A DNA stretch of 34,546 bases from Draconibacterium orientale. Its GTDB lineage: Bacteria; Bacteroidota; Bacteroidia; Bacteroidales; UBA1556. Below the pieces are notes generated by a model. The model was not told where the DNA came from. It searched no databases and worked only from the letters and a program-made list of their open reading frames with translations. The position numbers and the translations under genes were made by a program. Below are positions 5,764 to 13,166 of this stretch, piece after piece; position 1 is the first letter of the stretch, and each line of letters begins with the position of its first letter. The DNA lies in contig DYSI01000020.1 of assembly GCA_020718275.1 (NCBI GenBank), positions 1 to 34,546 on the forward strand, given 5' to 3'.

Positions 5764-5860
5764 TTTTTATAATATTGCCCCTACTTTTTGAGTAATGGTC
5801 TTGCCAAACTAGGCTTTTTACCTGTTTTTAGTTTACTATGATAGTTATGAGTTTTTTTTC

Positions 5861-5891
5861 TTGTAAAAAGCATGCTTCTTTCTTATCTTTG
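5861..5891 (+). promoter_or_regulatory. Bacteroidetes promoter for the TPR/caspase-like gene
   Basis: TTG (5861-5863), 20-nt spacer, TATCTTTG (5884-5891), 42 nt before the ATG at 5934. Confidence 0.7.
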
Positions 5892-5933
5892 CGACTAAAT
5901 ATAATAAGTCTAATAAATCACACTCTCAATATT

Positions 5934-8279
5934 ATGAAAACACTTTCATTCCTTTTATCGTTCATTCTTTTGGCTTCCTTTGGGCAGGCCCAAAATGCAA
6001 AAAAGTTTTTTAAAACTGGAGAGACTTTCAGTGAAAGTCAGCAGTATAATGATGCACTCGATAATTTTACGAAAGCCATAGAAATGGAGCCCGACTTTGT
6101 AAAAGCTTTTGTTGCTCGTGCTGATGTATATATTAAACTCAATAAAACATACGAGGCTTTTGCAGATTTAGAGCGTGCTTGTATCTTAGATGCAAAAGAA
6201 CCAGCCTATTCACTTCAAGCAGCTCGCCTAGCACTAGCGTTAGAAAAATACGAAAGTGCTATCAAATTTGCTGATTTGACTATCTTAAATGATAAAAAGT
6301 TACTGGATTCTTACCATATCAAAGTGATGGCTTTATTTAACCTAAATAAAATTGATGAGGCTCTATTTACTGCTAATGCTGCAATCGAAATTAAAAAGAT
6401 CTTTCAAACTCATTATGATAAAGCAGAAATGCTTTTTGCTCGCAAGGAATATAAAGAAGCTCAAAATTATTATCAATTGGCTATTTCTGACGAAGAGAAT
6501 AATATCAAAGGGTATATCGGCTTAGCAAATGCCTACTTTCAGCAAAATCTTTTCGATCCTACAATCTCATCGGTCAATTCTGCTTTGCGTATCGATCAAC
6601 GTAGCAAGGATGCCTATTTAATACGAGCAGCAGCTTATAACAAAAAGTTTGATTATGTTAGTGCAATTAATGATTTGTCGCAGGTAATTGTATTGTATCC
6701 TAATGAGCCATTCTTAAAAGATGTATTTTTTAAAAGAGGTCAAATGTACTATGACTTTAAACAACATATCAATGCGATCAATGACTATACAAGTGTAATT
6801 GATATGGATCCTCAGTATTATCCAGCTTATTTCAATAGAGCAGCAAGTTATGAGGAAATCCACAGCTTAGATAAAGCAATTCTTGATTACGAAAAGTTAG
6901 ATGCGCTTAATCTTAAAGATGAAGTAGCCCTTAAATTACTGGATGCCGCTCATATTCGTTTGTTTGAATTAAAACGAGAAGACAATCGTCCTGTTTTGGT
7001 AATCAATAATCCAATGGTTACTTCGGATAAAAAAATTCAAATAATCCTTGGAAAAGAAACTCAACAAATATCTGGTCAAGTTAATGACGAAAGCCCAATA
7101 AAGTCTTTTACCATCAACGGTACTGTAATACAATTTGATTCTACCTCTAAGAAAAATGAATTTAATACTAAACTAGTAGTTAAAGATAAAACTGAAATTG
7201 TTTTTGCGGTCAGAGATGTTTATGACAATGTGACTAATGAAATCATGCAAATACAATTTACCGAAGTAGATGCACCTGAACTTAGTCTTGTTCAGCCAAT
7301 GGCAAGTGATGATGGACAAATCTATTTGCAGTCTAGCGAAGCAAAACTTTACATCGAGGGCACCATAATCGATGCTAGCTTAATTGCTTCAATTCTGATT
7401 GATAGTGCACAAGCTAGTTTCATCCCGTCGACTCTAAATCCTTCTTTTGGCGCAAGTGTTAATATCACGAATAAAAATCAAATCTCAATTGAAGTAAAAG
7501 ATATTTTTGGAAATACAACTACGAAAAAATATATCCTAAATAGAGAAGGCGCTGAAATAGCTTCTGAGAATCCTATGGGGAAAACTTGGGTGATCTTTAT
7601 TGAAAACGCTCAATATTCTACTTTTGCTTCCCTAAATGGGCCCACTAAAGATGTTTCAATGATGAAATCGGCTCTAGCAAATTATAATATTAATTACATT
7701 ATTCACAAGCGGAACCTTACTAAATCCCAAATGGAAAAGTTCTTTTCTATAGAATTGCGGGATCTAGTGATTAAAAACAATGTAAACTCCATTATCGTTT
7801 GGTATGCAGGTCACGGAAAATTCTTGAATAATACTGGTTATTGGGTTCCTGTTGATGGTAGAACAGATGATGAATTTACCTATTTTAATATAAGCACTCT
7901 TAAGTCCTCTATGCAGGCTTACAGCAAAATTGTAACCCATACCTTAGTTATTACAGATGCTTGTGAATCAGGCCCATCGTTCTATCAAGCCATGCGTTCA
8001 GATATCACTGAAAGGGATTGCTCCGACTGGAAAGCCACTAAATTCAAATCAAGTCAGGTCTTTTCTTCAGCTGGATATGAACTGGCTTCTGATAATTCCC
8101 AATTTACTAAGACATTTGCTAATTCCTTGATTCACAATCCTAATAGTTGTATTCCGATAGAAAGTATTGTACTTTCAGTTAAAAAGGCCGTTACTAAAAA
8201 TAATCAGCAAGCTCCGCAATTTGGTAAAATTGACGGAATGGAGGATGAAAATGGTACTTTCTTTTTTATTCGCAAATAA
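5934..8279 (+). CDS. Secreted TPR-repeat protein with Ig-like region and C-terminal caspase-like (C14) domain
   Basis: Signal peptide MKTLSFLLSFILLASFGQAQ; several TPR-like repeats; Ig-like middle region; caspase dyad motifs YAGHGK (His codon 7812-7814) and DACESG (Cys codon 7962-7964). Confidence 0.88.
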   Translation: MKTLSFLLSFILLASFGQAQNAKKFFKTGETFSESQQYNDALDNFTKAIEMEPDFVKAFVARADVYIKLNKTYEAFADLERACILDAKEPAYSLQAARLALALEKYESAIKFADLTILNDKKLLDSYHIKVMALFNLNKIDEALFTANAAIEIKKIFQTHYDKAEMLFARKEYKEAQNYYQLAISDEENNIKGYIGLANAYFQQNLFDPTISSVNSALRIDQRSKDAYLIRAAAYNKKFDYVSAINDLSQVIVLYPNEPFLKDVFFKRGQMYYDFKQHINAINDYTSVIDMDPQYYPAYFNRAASYEEIHSLDKAILDYEKLDALNLKDEVALKLLDAAHIRLFELKREDNRPVLVINNPMVTSDKKIQIILGKETQQISGQVNDESPIKSFTINGTVIQFDSTSKKNEFNTKLVVKDKTEIVFAVRDVYDNVTNEIMQIQFTEVDAPELSLVQPMASDDGQIYLQSSEAKLYIEGTIIDASLIASILIDSAQASFIPSTLNPSFGASVNITNKNQISIEVKDIFGNTTTKKYILNREGAEIASENPMGKTWVIFIENAQYSTFASLNGPTKDVSMMKSALANYNINYIIHKRNLTKSQMEKFFSIELRDLVIKNNVNSIIVWYAGHGKFLNNTGYWVPVDGRTDDEFTYFNISTLKSSMQAYSKIVTHTLVITDACESGPSFYQAMRSDITERDCSDWKATKFKSSQVFSSAGYELASDNSQFTKTFANSLIHNPNSCIPIESIVLSVKKAVTKNNQQAPQFGKIDGMEDENGTFFFIRK

Positions 8280-8300
8280 CGTAAACAATAATTTTATCGA

Positions 8301-8329
8301 GAGAAAGCCAAAAGCTTTCTCTTTTTTTT
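8301..8329 (+). terminator. Rho-independent terminator or attenuator between the caspase-like and PP2C genes
   Basis: GAGAAAGC-caaaa-GCTTTCTC then TTTTTTTT; 20 nt separate its end from the next ATG. Confidence 0.8.
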
Positions 8330-8349
8330 GTTTTTCTAAATACACAATC

Positions 8350-11300
8350 ATGGTAAGAAGTTCATTTCAATCGGTCGTATTTCTTTCATTTATATTCTTG
8401 ATGAGCCTAGCAAAAAGCGCATATCCTCAAGATTATTACTTCGATAATTACAGTGTAAAGGAAGGATTGGCGCATACCAAAATCAAAAGTATTATTCAAT
8501 CTCATGACGGTTACGTTTGGATTGGTACGGCTAGTGGATTATCACGCTTTGATGGAAATACTTTTAGAAATTACACCATTGAAGATGGAATTTCGGCATT
8601 TGGAGTTTCTGCATTGCATTTAGATAGTGCTGAAACTCTCTGGATTGGTCACCTATCCTCAGGTTTTTCATATTTGCGAAAAGATAAGTTTTATACCATT
8701 AAGCTTGATAGCGCTCTCGGCGATATTTCTGATATTGAGCAAGATGAAAAAGGCAGACTTTGGATTGCAACTTCTAAAAGTGGCGTTTATCGAATTGATG
8801 ACCCATTTGCTGAAAAAATTCAAATTTCTGCTCATATAACTGCTAAAAGCGGACTCCCTAATGAGGTTTTTTCTATGGCCAAAACTCAATCGTTGGGTTT
8901 ATTATTCATCACAGGCTACGGCGTTAAATATTATGATTCAAAGCTTAATAAGTTTGAATTTGTAAATGATCAATTTATTGACTGGCCTCAATACTTTCAG
9001 ATCACTAGTGTTTTGGAAGATAAAAATAATGGTTTTTGGGTAGGTACTTTTAATGGCGGTTTGTATCATTATCCATCAGTTAAAGCTAAAGCTCGAATTT
9101 TTGACAAGCGTGATGGACTCGTAAATAATTGGATTAGTGATATTTATCAATCATATGATGGTAGCGTTTGGGTCGCAACTTATGGCGGAGGAATATCTGT
9201 TTTTAATGGCGATAAAATCGAAAATTATGACACGGAAAATGGATTAATTGATAATACGATAACTTGTGTTGCTGCTGATTTTGAAGGAAATATGCTAATC
9301 GGAACCTATTCCAAAGGATTAGCTGTTTTTAAAGGGCGTGCATTCATTCATGCAAAAAAGTTTTTGTCCGATAGAGTAGTTCAAGTATACGGAATATCGG
9401 AAGGATTTAAAAACGATTTTTGGTATGCTACCAACGAAGGCTTGTTTAACGCTACTAAAGATCAGTTCGGTCACTTCAAAACTAAGCATTTTACTAGCGA
9501 TGGTCTTAACTTTCAGTCAACTGATGTTCGCTTTGTAAAGCAAGATAAAAAGGGAAATCAATGGGTTGGAACATGGGGAGGAGGAGTGTCCTTTTTTGAT
9601 GCAGCTCGAAATAAATTCACTTATGCTTATTTAGTAAATACAGTTCTTTATCAAGCCTCTAATAGTGCTAACGTCACCGCCATGGAGTTAGATAAAGATG
9701 GTAATTTATGGGTAGGATCTTATGGCGGACTTATCTACTTTGAGCCGTCTAGTGATAAATTAAACGTTCTTACCCAAGGAAGTAATCTGCTGAATAATGA
9801 TATTTCTACGCTTTATTGTGACGAAAATAATATGATGTGGGTTGGACATCGCGATAAAGGAGTGACCCAGATACGAATAAGTGACGGCACCATCAAACCC
9901 TATAATTTTGGCATGGAGGTTACTCCCACTTGTATTCTTGGTAATGAAAGCCAGTTGTGGATTGGAACCGAAGGGATGGGCGTTTTTTTGGTTAACGATC
10001 ATAAAATACTTGAGCATTACAGTTTTGAAAATGGCCTGCTTTCTAATCTGATAACCGCTCTCAGCTTTGATTTAGCTGGAAATTTATTTGTGGCTACGAA
10101 TCGTGGTCTTAATAAAATTGAGATAAAGACTAAAAGAGTTTTATCTTTTGCCGAAAAAGAAGGTTTTGTAGGAATTGAAATCAAACCAAACGCACTTTAT
10201 CGTGATAAAACAGGAGTTTTATGGGCCGGAACTGCAACAGGACTAACGCAAATTGTTCCTAAATTATTAAAAATAAACGAATTACCTCCAATTACAAGAA
10301 TTAATCGACTCAGAGTTAACCTTGAAGATCGTCCTATTACTCAGGATATGGTGTTCAAATATAATGAGAATTCAATCTTGATTGATTATAAGTCAATTTG
10401 TATAACAAATGCAGATAAAGTTGCCTATAAGGTTCGGTTAATAGGAGCGGAAGAAGAATGGCAACCCATTACTTCACAGACCTATGTGAATTATCCTAGT
10501 TTGCCTCCCGGACATTATACTTTTGAAGTGATGGCAATGAATAATGCAAACGTTTGGAATATAGAATCTGAGAAATTCTCCTTTACAATTCGTCCTCCTT
10601 TTTGGCAAACCATTTGGTTTTATAGTTTGGTTCTTTTTGTTTTGATTATTGGTCTGGTGATGTTTATTAAAATCCGTGAACGTCAATTGAAAAATGAAAA
10701 AGCGGAACTCGAACAAAAAGTGAAAGAAAGAACGGTTGAAATACAACAGAAAAATGATTTGTTAGCAAAAAAGAATAAGGATATCACCGATAGTATTAAC
10801 TACGCCCAACGAATCCAAAAAGCAATAATGCCCCCTCCGCAAAAAATGAATGAATTGCTTAAATCTTCGTTTATATTTTATCGTCCAAAGGATATTGTTA
10901 GTGGTGATTTTCATTGGAATACCTTTTATAAAAACAAAATGATAGTGGCTGCTGCAGACTGTACTGGCCACGGAGTCCCGGGTGCTTTTATGAGCATGAT
11001 AAGTATCAGTTCGCTTAATAAAGTTGTAAAGGAAAAACAAATAACCGATCCTGCGCGAATTTTAGATAATATGCGATACGACATCGTTGCCGACCTTAAG
11101 CAAAGTGGTGATGTTCAGGCCAAAGATGGACTTGATATCGCTTTAGTGGCTATTGATATCGAAAATAAAATTGTACAATTCGCCGGCGCATACAATCCAC
11201 TTTATATTGTTAAAGCTAAGCCAGTTGATGAGAGTCAGTTGGAATATGATTTTGCTTTTGCCTTATTTGGTGATCGGCTAATTGAAGTAAAAGCAGACCG

Positions 11301-11583
11301 AATGCCCATAGGAATTTCTGAAAGAATGGACTTAGGTTTCACCACTAAAACGATTCAAATGGAAAAGGGAGATCAGGTTTTTGTTTCTACAGATGGTTAC
11401 ATTGATCAATTTGGAGGGGCTAATGGTAAAAAGTTTATGTCAAAAAGATTCAAAGAATTATTAATGCAATTGCCTTACTCAGACCCTGAAAACGCGATAG
11501 TTAGTTTGGAAAAACAGTTCAACGAATGGCGAGGAGAACATGAACAAATCGACGATGTTTTAGTTATTGGAATTTGTTTTTAA
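8350..11583 (+). CDS. Two-component-regulator-type beta-propeller / Y_Y_Y sensor with TM helix, coiled coil and SpoIIE/PP2C phosphatase domain (SiaA/RsbU-like)
   Basis: Repeated propeller blades (GYVWIGTASGLSRFDG, GSVWVATYGGGISVFNG); Y_Y_Y region; TM WFYSLVLFVLIIGLVMFI; coiled coil; PP2C motifs SGDFHW, AAADCTGHGVPGAFMS, STDGYIDQ, IDDVLVIG. Signal-peptide start chosen at 8350. Confidence 0.92.
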   Translation: MVRSSFQSVVFLSFIFLMSLAKSAYPQDYYFDNYSVKEGLAHTKIKSIIQSHDGYVWIGTASGLSRFDGNTFRNYTIEDGISAFGVSALHLDSAETLWIGHLSSGFSYLRKDKFYTIKLDSALGDISDIEQDEKGRLWIATSKSGVYRIDDPFAEKIQISAHITAKSGLPNEVFSMAKTQSLGLLFITGYGVKYYDSKLNKFEFVNDQFIDWPQYFQITSVLEDKNNGFWVGTFNGGLYHYPSVKAKARIFDKRDGLVNNWISDIYQSYDGSVWVATYGGGISVFNGDKIENYDTENGLIDNTITCVAADFEGNMLIGTYSKGLAVFKGRAFIHAKKFLSDRVVQVYGISEGFKNDFWYATNEGLFNATKDQFGHFKTKHFTSDGLNFQSTDVRFVKQDKKGNQWVGTWGGGVSFFDAARNKFTYAYLVNTVLYQASNSANVTAMELDKDGNLWVGSYGGLIYFEPSSDKLNVLTQGSNLLNNDISTLYCDENNMMWVGHRDKGVTQIRISDGTIKPYNFGMEVTPTCILGNESQLWIGTEGMGVFLVNDHKILEHYSFENGLLSNLITALSFDLAGNLFVATNRGLNKIEIKTKRVLSFAEKEGFVGIEIKPNALYRDKTGVLWAGTATGLTQIVPKLLKINELPPITRINRLRVNLEDRPITQDMVFKYNENSILIDYKSICITNADKVAYKVRLIGAEEEWQPITSQTYVNYPSLPPGHYTFEVMAMNNANVWNIESEKFSFTIRPPFWQTIWFYSLVLFVLIIGLVMFIKIRERQLKNEKAELEQKVKERTVEIQQKNDLLAKKNKDITDSINYAQRIQKAIMPPPQKMNELLKSSFIFYRPKDIVSGDFHWNTFYKNKMIVAAADCTGHGVPGAFMSMISISSLNKVVKEKQITDPARILDNMRYDIVADLKQSGDVQAKDGLDIALVAIDIENKIVQFAGAYNPLYIVKAKPVDESQLEYDFAFALFGDRLIEVKADRMPIGISERMDLGFTTKTIQMEKGDQVFVSTDGYIDQFGGANGKKFMSKRFKELLMQLPYSDPENAIVSLEKQFNEWRGEHEQIDDVLVIGICF

Positions 11584-11649
11584 AAAACGTCAAAGCGTAA
11601 CATTTTTTTTATAAATTAGTGCCTTCTAATAATTCATAAAAAAGTAAAT

Positions 11650-12198
11650 ATGAATACTTACGAAAAGTTTCGCAATATGATGGATAACCATATTGTTTTA
11701 TCCTTTAAAGGCGAAATAAATTCCGACATTATTACGATGGTTTTGCAAATAATGGAAACCAAATTGGATGCTGTTTCAGAAAAAAGCAGCGTTAGGAAGA
11801 AAATATTCAATGTGCTGGTTGAATGTATGCAGAACCTTTATCACCATGCAGAGGCTGAGGTGGAAGGAGACATTCATACAAGACGGGCAATGCTCGAATT
11901 GTTTTACGATGAGGATTTCTACTATATTTTGACAGGTAATTACATCAAGAATGTTGAGATTTCGCCTTTAAAAGACCGGATAGATAGGGTTAATTCCCTC
12001 TCAAAGGATGAATTGCGCCAGTATTATCGCGAAATTTTGGATAATAATATTATTTCCAATAAGGGAGGTGCAGACCTTGGTATGATTGACATGGCTAGAA
12101 AATCGGGTCAGAAATTGGATTATAATTTTACAAAAGTTAATGATGACTTATCCTTTTTTGACTTGAAAGTTAAAGTGGATAAAAAGAGAGATAATTAA
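11650..12198 (+). CDS. SiaB-like protein kinase (DUF6272, HATPase-related)
   Basis: N-box-like KIFNVLVECMQNLYHHAE and GGADLGMIDMARKSG; sits between PP2C and DUF1987 genes as in Sia modules. Confidence 0.8.
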   Translation: MNTYEKFRNMMDNHIVLSFKGEINSDIITMVLQIMETKLDAVSEKSSVRKKIFNVLVECMQNLYHHAEAEVEGDIHTRRAMLELFYDEDFYYILTGNYIKNVEISPLKDRIDRVNSLSKDELRQYYREILDNNIISNKGGADLGMIDMARKSGQKLDYNFTKVNDDLSFFDLKVKVDKKRDN

Positions 12199-12237
12199 AT
12201 AATCAATATATTAATAGAATCACAAAAAAGATTTGTT

Positions 12238-12618
12238 ATGGATAATTTTAAAATCGAAGGAACTAAGCAAACTCCTAAAATAGCTTTTTCAGCAAGTACA
12301 GGAATTTTGGAGATATCTGGTAGATCTATTCCAGAAAATACCTTTGAGTTTTTTAATCCTGTTTTGCTCTGGCTTGATTCATATAGTGCGGTTGCTCCAC
12401 AAAAGATTGTGGCTAAAATTAGTTTAGAATACTTCAACACTAGTTCCTCAAAGTACATTCTTGAAGTCTTAAAACGACTTAAGGGAATGTTAAATGATGG
12501 CAAAGAGGTTTTGGTGGAATGGTATTACGAAGAAGATGATGAGGAAATGATGGAAACTGGTGAAGATTACCAAGATGTAAGTGGTTTACCGTTTAACATA
12601 GTGGCTAAAGAAGACTAA
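12238..12618 (+). CDS. SiaC-like regulatory phosphoprotein (DUF1987)
   Basis: DUF1987-like sequence TPKIAFSASTGILEISGRSIPEN...FNPVLLWLDSY...LEYFNTSSSKYILEVLKRL. Confidence 0.88.
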   Translation: MDNFKIEGTKQTPKIAFSASTGILEISGRSIPENTFEFFNPVLLWLDSYSAVAPQKIVAKISLEYFNTSSSKYILEVLKRLKGMLNDGKEVLVEWYYEEDDEEMMETGEDYQDVSGLPFNIVAKED

Positions 12619-12625
12619 TCTGTAA

Positions 12626-13150
12626 ATGGCAAATCAGAGTATATACCAAAGAGAACTAGAAAATCTCGAGCAAAGTAAGCAGTTTCTTCAACGAAATGAA
12701 TATTCCAAAATTGAACTACAATTGGAATTCAAAAAAATCGTTGAAAATTATGAAGAGCTAATTGATCAGGTGAAGATTATCACCAAAATTAGCGATCGTC
12801 TGCAGAATAAATTAAATAAAACTAACGAAGCGCTCGAAAGCTCTAATATCAAATTGGCTGATTTGAATCACCAACTTAATCAAACTATTGATCAACTTAC
12901 AGAAGCTAAAATTGGTCGAAAGGCTGGAACAATCATTCTTATTTTTGCGATTGCATTATTTATTATCTCAGAAGCTTTTATCGAACCAATCATTGAAAGA
13001 ACCTTTTCCAATAATTTTTGGATAGGATTAGGGCTCAAACTAGGAGTGGCTATCCTTATCAAACCAGGTGAAGATTTTGTGAATAAATATATGCTACGTC
13101 AAGCTCGAAAAAAACAGCTTGCAGAAGCCCGAGAACGTCTAGCAGATTAA
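12626..13150 (+). CDS. Coiled-coil membrane protein with SiaD-type stalk-like segment, no GGDEF domain
   Basis: Long coiled coil (NYEELIDQVKIITKISDRLQNKLNKTNEAL), then hydrophobic segments TIILIFAIALFIISEAFI and FWIGLGLKLGVAILI; 7-nt gap after the SiaC-like gene. Confidence 0.7.
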   Translation: MANQSIYQRELENLEQSKQFLQRNEYSKIELQLEFKKIVENYEELIDQVKIITKISDRLQNKLNKTNEALESSNIKLADLNHQLNQTIDQLTEAKIGRKAGTIILIFAIALFIISEAFIEPIIERTFSNNFWIGLGLKLGVAILIKPGEDFVNKYMLRQARKKQLAEARERLAD

Positions 13151-13166
13151 TTGGTCTGCTATTTTT
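13140..13166 (+). terminator. Terminator overlapping the stop codon of the coiled-coil gene
   Basis: TAGCAGA-ttaattgg-TCTGCTA stem then TTTTATTTT. Confidence 0.55.

Follow-up and report, generated by a model that had tools for sequence, protein, structure and literature searches.

Four consecutive forward-strand genes of the window, which is the whole 34,546-nucleotide stretch of Draconibacterium orientale DNA analysed here, likely encode a complete phospho-switch of the SiaABC type, in which the fourth gene, judging from its sequence, specifies a SiaC receptor without a GGDEF domain. The domains, the gene order, the homology of the fourth protein's stalk to that of SiaD, its docking motif and the co-occurrence of stalk and SiaC are directly visible in the sequences. 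By analogy with the characterised Sia proteins, T68 of SiaC would be phosphorylated, SiaC would dock on the stalk and the stalk would dimerise, and we infer that the membrane hairpin of the fourth protein may be the output. The features are:

8299..8323, + strand: terminator-like hairpin, 10-bp stem and T tract (consensus match only)
8350..11583, + strand: gene 1, SiaA-like propeller-Y_Y_Y-TM-SpoIIE phosphatase (Pfam, NCBIfam, hydropathy, structure alignments)
about 8437-10269, + strand: Reg_prop propeller of gene 1
10408-10590, + strand: Y_Y_Y of gene 1
10612-10668, + strand: TM of gene 1, residues 755-773 (Kyte-Doolittle scan)
10933-11574, + strand: SpoIIE/PP2C phosphatase of gene 1
11650..12198, + strand: gene 2, SiaB-family kinase, DUF6272 (Pfam, NCBIfam, alignment to 6KKO)
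12238..12618, + strand: gene 3, SiaC phosphoprotein, PF09345 (Pfam, residue mapping)
12626..13150, + strand: gene 4, putative SiaC receptor with SiaD-type stalk and two-helix membrane hairpin
12635..12877, + strand: gene 4 stalk (residues 4-84), a homologue of the SiaD stalk (profile searches)
12788..12805, + strand: SiaC-docking motif I55-S-D-R-L-Q60, equivalent to SiaD I81-S-D-R-Y-Q86 (alignment; contacts from PMC8457831)
12917..13105, + strand: gene 4 membrane hairpin (residues 98-160), conserved signatures A-LF-SE-EP and K-IKP-E
13140..13161, + strand: terminator-like hairpin, 9-bp stem and T tract, overlapping the gene 4 end (consensus match only)

The earlier note had described a Sia-type partner switch of four consecutive same-strand genes, for a propeller-phosphatase, a SiaB-like protein, SiaC and a coiled-coil membrane protein, with no diguanylate cyclase. 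Open reading frames, Pfam, NCBIfam and hydropathy bear this out. Searches for PP2C, DUF6272 and DUF1987 assigned SiaB and SiaC, and Pfam found no GGDEF domain in genes 1-4; none was found elsewhere in the genome or in five relatives of its order that carry gene 4, although the absence from this genome is weak evidence alone because it is 71% complete. The genes span 8350-13150 and are spaced by 66, 39 and 7 bp. Gene 1 starts with ATG at 8350 and encodes 1077 aa; an alternative TTG start, at 8167, would lengthen the frame and make it overlap with the preceding gene. Since terminator-like hairpins lie on both sides, the transcription unit probably comprises exactly these four genes; the region holds 5 such sites, where shuffled sequence gives 2.7 +/- 1.8. 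The hairpin at 8299..8323 separates gene 1 from an upstream TPR-caspase gene. The co-conservation expected by the note was also seen: three close relatives have all four genes in this order, and the siaB-siaC-gene 4 order is present in other families.

Gene 1 combines a sensor with a phosphatase, matching Reg_prop (2.7e-37), Y_Y_Y (5e-13) and SpoIIE (1e-15) in Pfam. Residues 2-24 resemble a signal peptide, the Kyte-Doolittle scan gives a single TM at 755-773, and a coiled coil lies between the TM and the SpoIIE/PP2C domain. Compared with the SiaA crystal structure 6K4E, the GDF, DCxGHGVPGA, STDGxxDQxGG and DD motifs are retained; gene 1 encodes a membrane-bound PP2C phosphatase with intact metal-binding motifs. 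It scores strongly on the SiaA equivalog model yet stays under the cut-off because its sensor differs. The fused propeller, which had been singled out as a special feature, is indeed present, but propeller-PP2C proteins lie upstream of many Bacteroidota siaBC loci, and where close homologues of siaB, siaC and gene 4 occur as a set, the sensor may be a propeller, a TPR or a receiver domain, or no sensor is adjacent. In other Bacteroidota a gene between the propeller-PP2C gene and siaB was considered as a receptor and rejected, as it encodes a lipoprotein.

Gene 2 matches Pfam DUF6272 (4.6e-40) and NCBIfam SiaB_fam_kinase (NF038262; 153 bits against a curated cut-off of 85), and aligns to SiaB of 6KKO with an E-value of 6e-14. 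Residue mapping places its E58 at the predicted catalytic Glu of SiaB, residue 61 (PMC7647112) or 62 in the PDB chain numbering. Gene 3 matches Pfam SiaC PF09345 (1.5e-41; 141 bits against a cut-off of 24.5), and its phospho-acceptor T68 (codon 12439-12441) lies within an invariant Y-F-N-T-S-S. The NCBIfam equivalog models for SiaB and SiaC match genes 2 and 3 strongly, with scores under the cut-off. Because the same holds for SiaA, the Sia proteins here are family members, not equivalogs. Pfam matches of genes 4 and 2 to DUF1993 and FANCI were under the cut-off and were disregarded.

The link between SiaC and gene 4 rests on the stalk. The NCBIfam SiaD model matches gene 4 precisely across the stalk (E 9e-4), and also matches its orthologues L030 and L113 and stalks linked to kinases and cyclases. 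Searching the PDB with the gene 4 sequence alone returned nothing beyond chance matches to coiled coils, and a profile was needed to reach SiaD: with a profile of 14 Bacteroidota stalks, SiaD (7E6G) came top among 177,635 PDB sequences (E 0.0013; runner-up 0.3), the alignment covering both of its SiaC-binding motifs. A Foldseek search of the PDB with the model of gene 4 had no hits, as expected for long helices. The match to SiaD extends over ~40 residues and is individually weak; what lends it weight is its consistency, together with the genomic linkage. In the crystal structure, SiaD S82 and Q86 hydrogen-bond SiaC T68 (PMC8457831). They correspond to S56 and Q60 of gene 4, within KISDRLQ, which conforms to [IV]-[SG]-D-x-x-Q on a helical stalk. 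Across 27 SiaC-stalk operon pairs, D83 and Q86 (SiaD numbering) are invariant and position 82 is S or G; in SiaC, Y65, N67 and S69 are invariant. The homology of the stalk and the retention of the T68-bonding residues make it probable that gene 4 is a receptor for SiaC, with a two-helix membrane hairpin in place of the GGDEF domain of SiaD.

Other parts of the interface have diverged. Two docking motifs 32 residues apart were not found; gene 4 has a single motif, as do the other Bacteroidota stalks. The SiaD-SiaC salt bridges are partly lost, as SiaC D79, R103 and D114 are not kept. The D114-K77 pair is replaced by a hydrophobic pair in 8/8 hairpin cases, which form one clade and possibly reflect a single event; the 114/77 covariation signal is confounded by descent. 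Covariation between SiaC and stalk at 79/74, 103/91, 110/84, 110/80 and 114/74 showed no excess over shuffles.

Genomic linkage ties the stalk to SiaC. The stalk profile is positive in 18 of 395 genomes, 17 of which carry SiaC, a family found in 18 of 296 genomes; SiaC occurs in 13/14 stalk genomes and in 5/282 others (Fisher p about 7e-18). In one genome (G280) the stalk is present and SiaC was not detected. Elsewhere in the phylum, stalk genes usually lie directly downstream of siaB-siaC, and in the large majority the receptor gene immediately follows siaC, often with a gap of 0-20 bp. One gene 4 orthologue (L114) lies apart from siaC, the single copy of which sits on another contig. The stalk carries GGDEF, a class III cyclase, a histidine kinase or SpoIIE, or stands alone; at three loci (L130, L134, L135) it carries GGDEF in a SiaABCD-like order. 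On the SiaC tree, the proteins group according to the output type of their receptor, which takes 5 changes, the lowest number possible. The presence of this docking segment on many output machines of related bacteria suggests a plug-in signalling module.

According to the mechanism that we propose, the periplasmic propeller of gene 1 would recognise a signal and set the activity of the cytoplasmic PP2C domain. This domain would dephosphorylate SiaC T68, which the gene 2 kinase would phosphorylate. Unphosphorylated SiaC would then dock at KISDRLQ of gene 4 and lock the stalk as a parallel coiled-coil dimer, like SiaD. Since the stalk would continue without a break in the helix into a hairpin of two TMs in the inner membrane, docking would alter the oligomeric state or the spacing of the hairpin and, with it, the membrane output. 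This output might be a conductance, might consist in recruiting another membrane protein, or might be of a different kind; candidate effectors are a small conductance or a switchable subunit of a membrane complex. We tentatively extend this to a broader reading, plausible but short of probable, in which SiaC switching directly gates a membrane effector and the stalk plugs SiaC into c-di-GMP, cyclic-nucleotide, two-component, phosphatase or membrane outputs, sometimes two at once. Three genomes (G125, G133, G272) have one SiaC and two stalk proteins, a GGDEF and a cyclase protein. The output, which the earlier note had called unknown, can be narrowed to a likely SiaC receptor with a docking stalk.

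Gene 4 might instead be only an anchor or scaffold that keeps SiaC by the membrane phosphatase or sequesters it, with the true output encoded elsewhere. No enzymatic domain was found in gene 4 by Pfam or NCBIfam, the SiaA-like protein is itself membrane-bound, and another SiaABC set is present in the genome, with an ABC-transporter-like gene after it. In other genomes, stand-alone stalk proteins of 77-99 aa directly follow siaC, so the stalk need not carry an enzyme. The hairpin, however, has invariant residues beyond hydrophobicity (A, LF, E, P; K..P.E) and recurs on stalk-less TPR proteins without the SiaC motif, a pattern more in keeping with a functional domain than with a mere anchor. The domain at its position is the output in every enzymatic relative, and the close relatives G344 and G453 have one SiaC and one receptor each. 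We therefore regard the anchor as unlikely. The hairpin itself is covered by no Pfam or NCBIfam family. The Kyte-Doolittle scan shows one clear TM (101-119) in gene 4 and a second hydrophobic segment in several orthologues, which in some members, including gene 4 of the window, falls under the threshold; the AlphaFold2 hairpin is of low confidence (pLDDT about 58-77, pTM 0.35).

Gene 4 is not a SiaD, as it has no GGDEF domain, and it could be read as a decayed SiaD on its way out. The stalk homology would agree with this, as would the order, where no GGDEF was found in 6/6 genomes with the hairpin receptor (this genome and five relatives). But several families, and with L117 also a second lineage at class level, keep stalk and hairpin together at 30-79% identity, and each half has its invariant motifs; the operon position is maintained, and the hairpin, which occurs elsewhere, is not a GGDEF remnant, making decay very improbable. 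It is equally hard to credit that gene 4 encodes a coiled-coil membrane protein of unrelated origin with a coincidental motif, SiaC having another target: coiled coils do yield weak spurious matches, and others turn up in the PDB search with E-values from 0.3 upwards and also in NCBIfam, but the E-value of SiaD, the top PDB hit, is better by over two orders of magnitude and the alignment includes both docking motifs, the motif D and Q do not vary in the 27 pairs, and the stalk keeps company with an otherwise rare SiaC.

To our knowledge, the diguanylate cyclase SiaD is the one target of SiaC that has been characterised. In the open-licence literature we found no description of SiaC with non-GGDEF targets or of Reg_prop with SpoIIE, and the 2021 structure paper went only as far as suggesting that DUF1987 proteins modulate adjacent proteins (PMC8457831). 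The operon is placed here as a SiaC switch with a non-enzymatic, putative membrane receptor, and the docking element becomes recognisable in sequence on GGDEF, class III cyclase, histidine kinase, SpoIIE and membrane-hairpin proteins. The role of many SiaC proteins in organisms without c-di-GMP is thereby turned into specific, testable protein pairs.

Among known systems, the propeller and Y_Y_Y of gene 1, followed by one TM, match the periplasmic sensors of HTCS proteins (BT-type 4A2L, 3V9F), but SpoIIE follows in place of histidine kinase, receiver and AraC regulator. The passages of PMC12143880 on the RsbU/RsbT coiled-coil-linker toolkit describe how binding of a partner protein to a helical linker brings about dimerisation of the output, with one input module on phosphatases, histidine kinases and GGDEF enzymes. 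RsbT differs from SiaC as a GHKL-type partner that binds the RsbU N-terminal domain, and these passages neither discuss a SiaC-docking stalk nor describe a membrane hairpin output. The TPR-coiled-coil-hairpin proteins (L118 6350-8290, L119 9468-11447) share the C-terminal hairpin, but have TPR repeats instead of the stalk and no siaC seen adjacent. The Bacteroidota stalk-enzyme proteins near siaBC share the invariant T, D, Q and L positions of the stalk and differ in using cytoplasmic enzymes as output. Compared with SiaABCD of Pseudomonas aeruginosa (PA0172-PA0169; 7E6G), no c-di-GMP synthase was found in this incomplete genome, the SiaA sensor is replaced by propeller-Y_Y_Y, and the receptor has one docking motif, not two, and a TM hairpin, not GGDEF. 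The two systems share the order of phosphatase, kinase, SiaC and stalk protein, the context of SiaC T68 and the ISDR.Q docking motif on a long helical stalk.

Gene 4 is probably a SiaC receptor, related to the stalk of SiaD, the diguanylate cyclase of the Pseudomonas aeruginosa SiaABCD system. It ends a set of four closely spaced, collinear and genuine ORFs, the only genes between two terminator-like hairpins:

8299-8323, terminator-like hairpin, 5' flank of the four-gene set
8350-11583, forward strand, gene 1, SiaA-like phosphatase
11650-12198, forward strand, gene 2, SiaB-family kinase
12238-12618, forward strand, gene 3, SiaC
12626-13150, forward strand, gene 4, putative SiaC receptor
13140-13161, terminator-like hairpin, 3' flank of the four-gene set

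Pfam and NCBIfam searches assign propeller, Y_Y_Y and SpoIIE domains to gene 1, a SiaB-family kinase to gene 2 and SiaC to gene 3, bearing out the Sia-type module of four same-strand genes proposed in the earlier note. Among solved structures, gene 1 matches the SiaA phosphatase (6K4E, E 4e-36) with all PP2C motifs retained, gene 2 matches SiaB of 6KKO, and gene 3 matches SiaC of 6KKO and 7E6G. The propeller and Y_Y_Y of gene 1 resemble those of the HTCS glycan sensors 4A2L and 3V9F. Directly upstream, and cut off from the operon by the terminator-like hairpin, 5838-8279 encodes a TPR protein whose C-terminal domain is caspase-like (NF047832, E 1.5e-8), with the His in YAGHG and the Cys in ITDACESG; a TPR/caspase-type gene likewise precedes siaA in the same-genus loci L030, L110 and L111.

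Gene 4 (174 aa) has no family assigned in Pfam, and the NCBIfam SiaD model aligns to residues 26-75 of the protein (E 9e-4). The crystal structure of SiaC with SiaD shows SiaC on the long helical SiaD stalk, its phospho-acceptor T68 bonded to S82 and Q86 of SiaD; S50 and Q54 form a second identical site (PMC8457831). Searching the phylum with gene 4 finds 20 places, most sharing only the first 80-90 residues and most located just downstream of siaB and siaC. A 14-stalk profile (invariant E10, L45, T53, D57, Q60, L63 and L70) ranks SiaD of 7E6G first among all PDB sequences (E 0.0013; second-ranked, 0.3), and both SiaD docking motifs align with its conserved part. By residue mapping, I55-S56-D57-R58-L59-Q60 of gene 4 corresponds to I81-S82-D83-R84-Y85-Q86 of SiaD, and gene 3 is identical to SiaC at the stalk-contacting Y65, N67, T68 and S69. 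The four-gene observation stands, while gene 4, formerly described as a coiled-coil membrane protein, is corrected to a probable receptor by its SiaD-stalk homology and docking motif.

The distribution of the two putative partners also links them. SiaC is rare in the phylum sample (18/296 genomes), occurring in 13 of 14 stalk genomes versus 5 of 282 others (Fisher p 7e-18, which overstates independence because the genomes are related). The docking D and Q are unvarying in 27 operon pairs. In the SiaC tree, sequences cluster by receptor type with as few changes as possible, the membrane-hairpin type forming a single clade of eight. The pair equivalent to SiaD K77-SiaC D114 is hydrophobic on both sides in all eight, consistent with a co-adapted interface, possibly arising in one event.

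The stalk, present in 18 of 395 phylum genomes, appears to be a plug-in module joined to differing outputs. Pfam places after it GGDEF (L130, L134), class III cyclase (L131, L137, L149), HisKA and HATPase (L129, L138, L150) or SpoIIE (L142, L116); the membrane-hairpin type comprises the window, L030, L031, L099, L110, L111, L113, L114 and L117. The GGDEF cases L130, L134 and L135 reproduce the SiaABCD gene order, and three genomes (G125, G133, G272) hold one SiaC and two stalk proteins each, an in-operon GGDEF and an orphan cyclase. Stalks of 77-99 aa without a further domain (L144, L145, L146, L154) lie directly 3' of a siaC whose phospho-acceptor is Ser instead of Thr (N-S-S); they may be adaptors or decoys. 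A stalk gene beside siaC is a minority arrangement, since it adjoins only 3 of the 80 top-ranking SiaC loci in named genomes, all three of the hairpin type. The window's genome has a second SiaABC set (L128, G000:C31, 3712-10300), in which an 871-aa non-propeller PP2C, SiaB and SiaC (44% identical to gene 3) are followed by an ABC-transporter-like protein of 1018 aa; no docking stalk is recognisable in this protein, which may represent another kind of SiaC target.

In the neighbourhood survey, the siaB-siaC-receptor core is conserved and the phosphatase sensor is the changeable part: a propeller in the window's genus (L030, L110, L111), TPR in L031, a receiver-PP2C-SiaB fusion in L117, and no adjacent phosphatase sensor at L113 and L099. 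The fused propeller singled out earlier is present in gene 1 but is not special; the fusion is ordinary for the phylum, because some 20 of the surveyed SiaBC loci encode a propeller-like PP2C protein about 1060-1130 aa long. The L117 fusion (7162-9039) joins a receiver domain to a SpoIIE phosphatase and a SiaB kinase, the latter two being opposing activities on a single chain; it adjoins siaC and a hairpin receptor, with flagellar basal-body genes downstream. Many Bacteroidota loci lacking a stalk receptor (L045, L051, L059, L076, L079, L090, L093, L102, L106) encode, between propeller-PP2C and siaB, a conserved lipoprotein-like protein of 270-306 aa (N-terminal 'ETQS..DNA', C-terminal 'CDD.A.F.VNG'), possibly a sensor partner.

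As the earlier note states for the four-gene module, no diguanylate cyclase is in evidence: GGDEF was found neither in the window's genome (71% complete) nor in five further same-order genomes with a hairpin receptor (87-98% complete). SiaC in this lineage is therefore very unlikely to work through c-di-GMP. G160, a more distant genome, encodes one GGDEF, located elsewhere, and stalk-GGDEF genomes have 8-9.

Instead of GGDEF, gene 4 carries a predicted membrane hairpin (residues 98-160), with a strong TM at 101-119, a short loop, a second helix of lower hydrophobicity and invariant A, LF, E, P and K-I-K-P signatures. AlphaFold2 predicts helices at 6-21, 28-126 (unbroken from stalk into TM1) and 131-173, with mean pLDDT 76 and low values in the hairpin. 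The same hairpin ends two TPR-coiled-coil proteins without the SiaC docking motif (L118, 6350-8290; L119, 9468-11447), and therefore looks like a candidate output domain joinable to differing inputs. By analogy with SiaABCD, SiaC would be controlled by phosphorylation, and its dephosphorylated form would dock on gene 4 and order the stalk into a dimer, which may shift or cluster the membrane hairpins. Work on RsbU has led to the proposal of a general coiled-coil-linker toolkit, through which binding of a partner drives phosphatases, kinases and cyclases (PMC12143880). The enzymatic stalk proteins of our survey fit this toolkit, and the hairpin receptor would extend the idea to membrane output.
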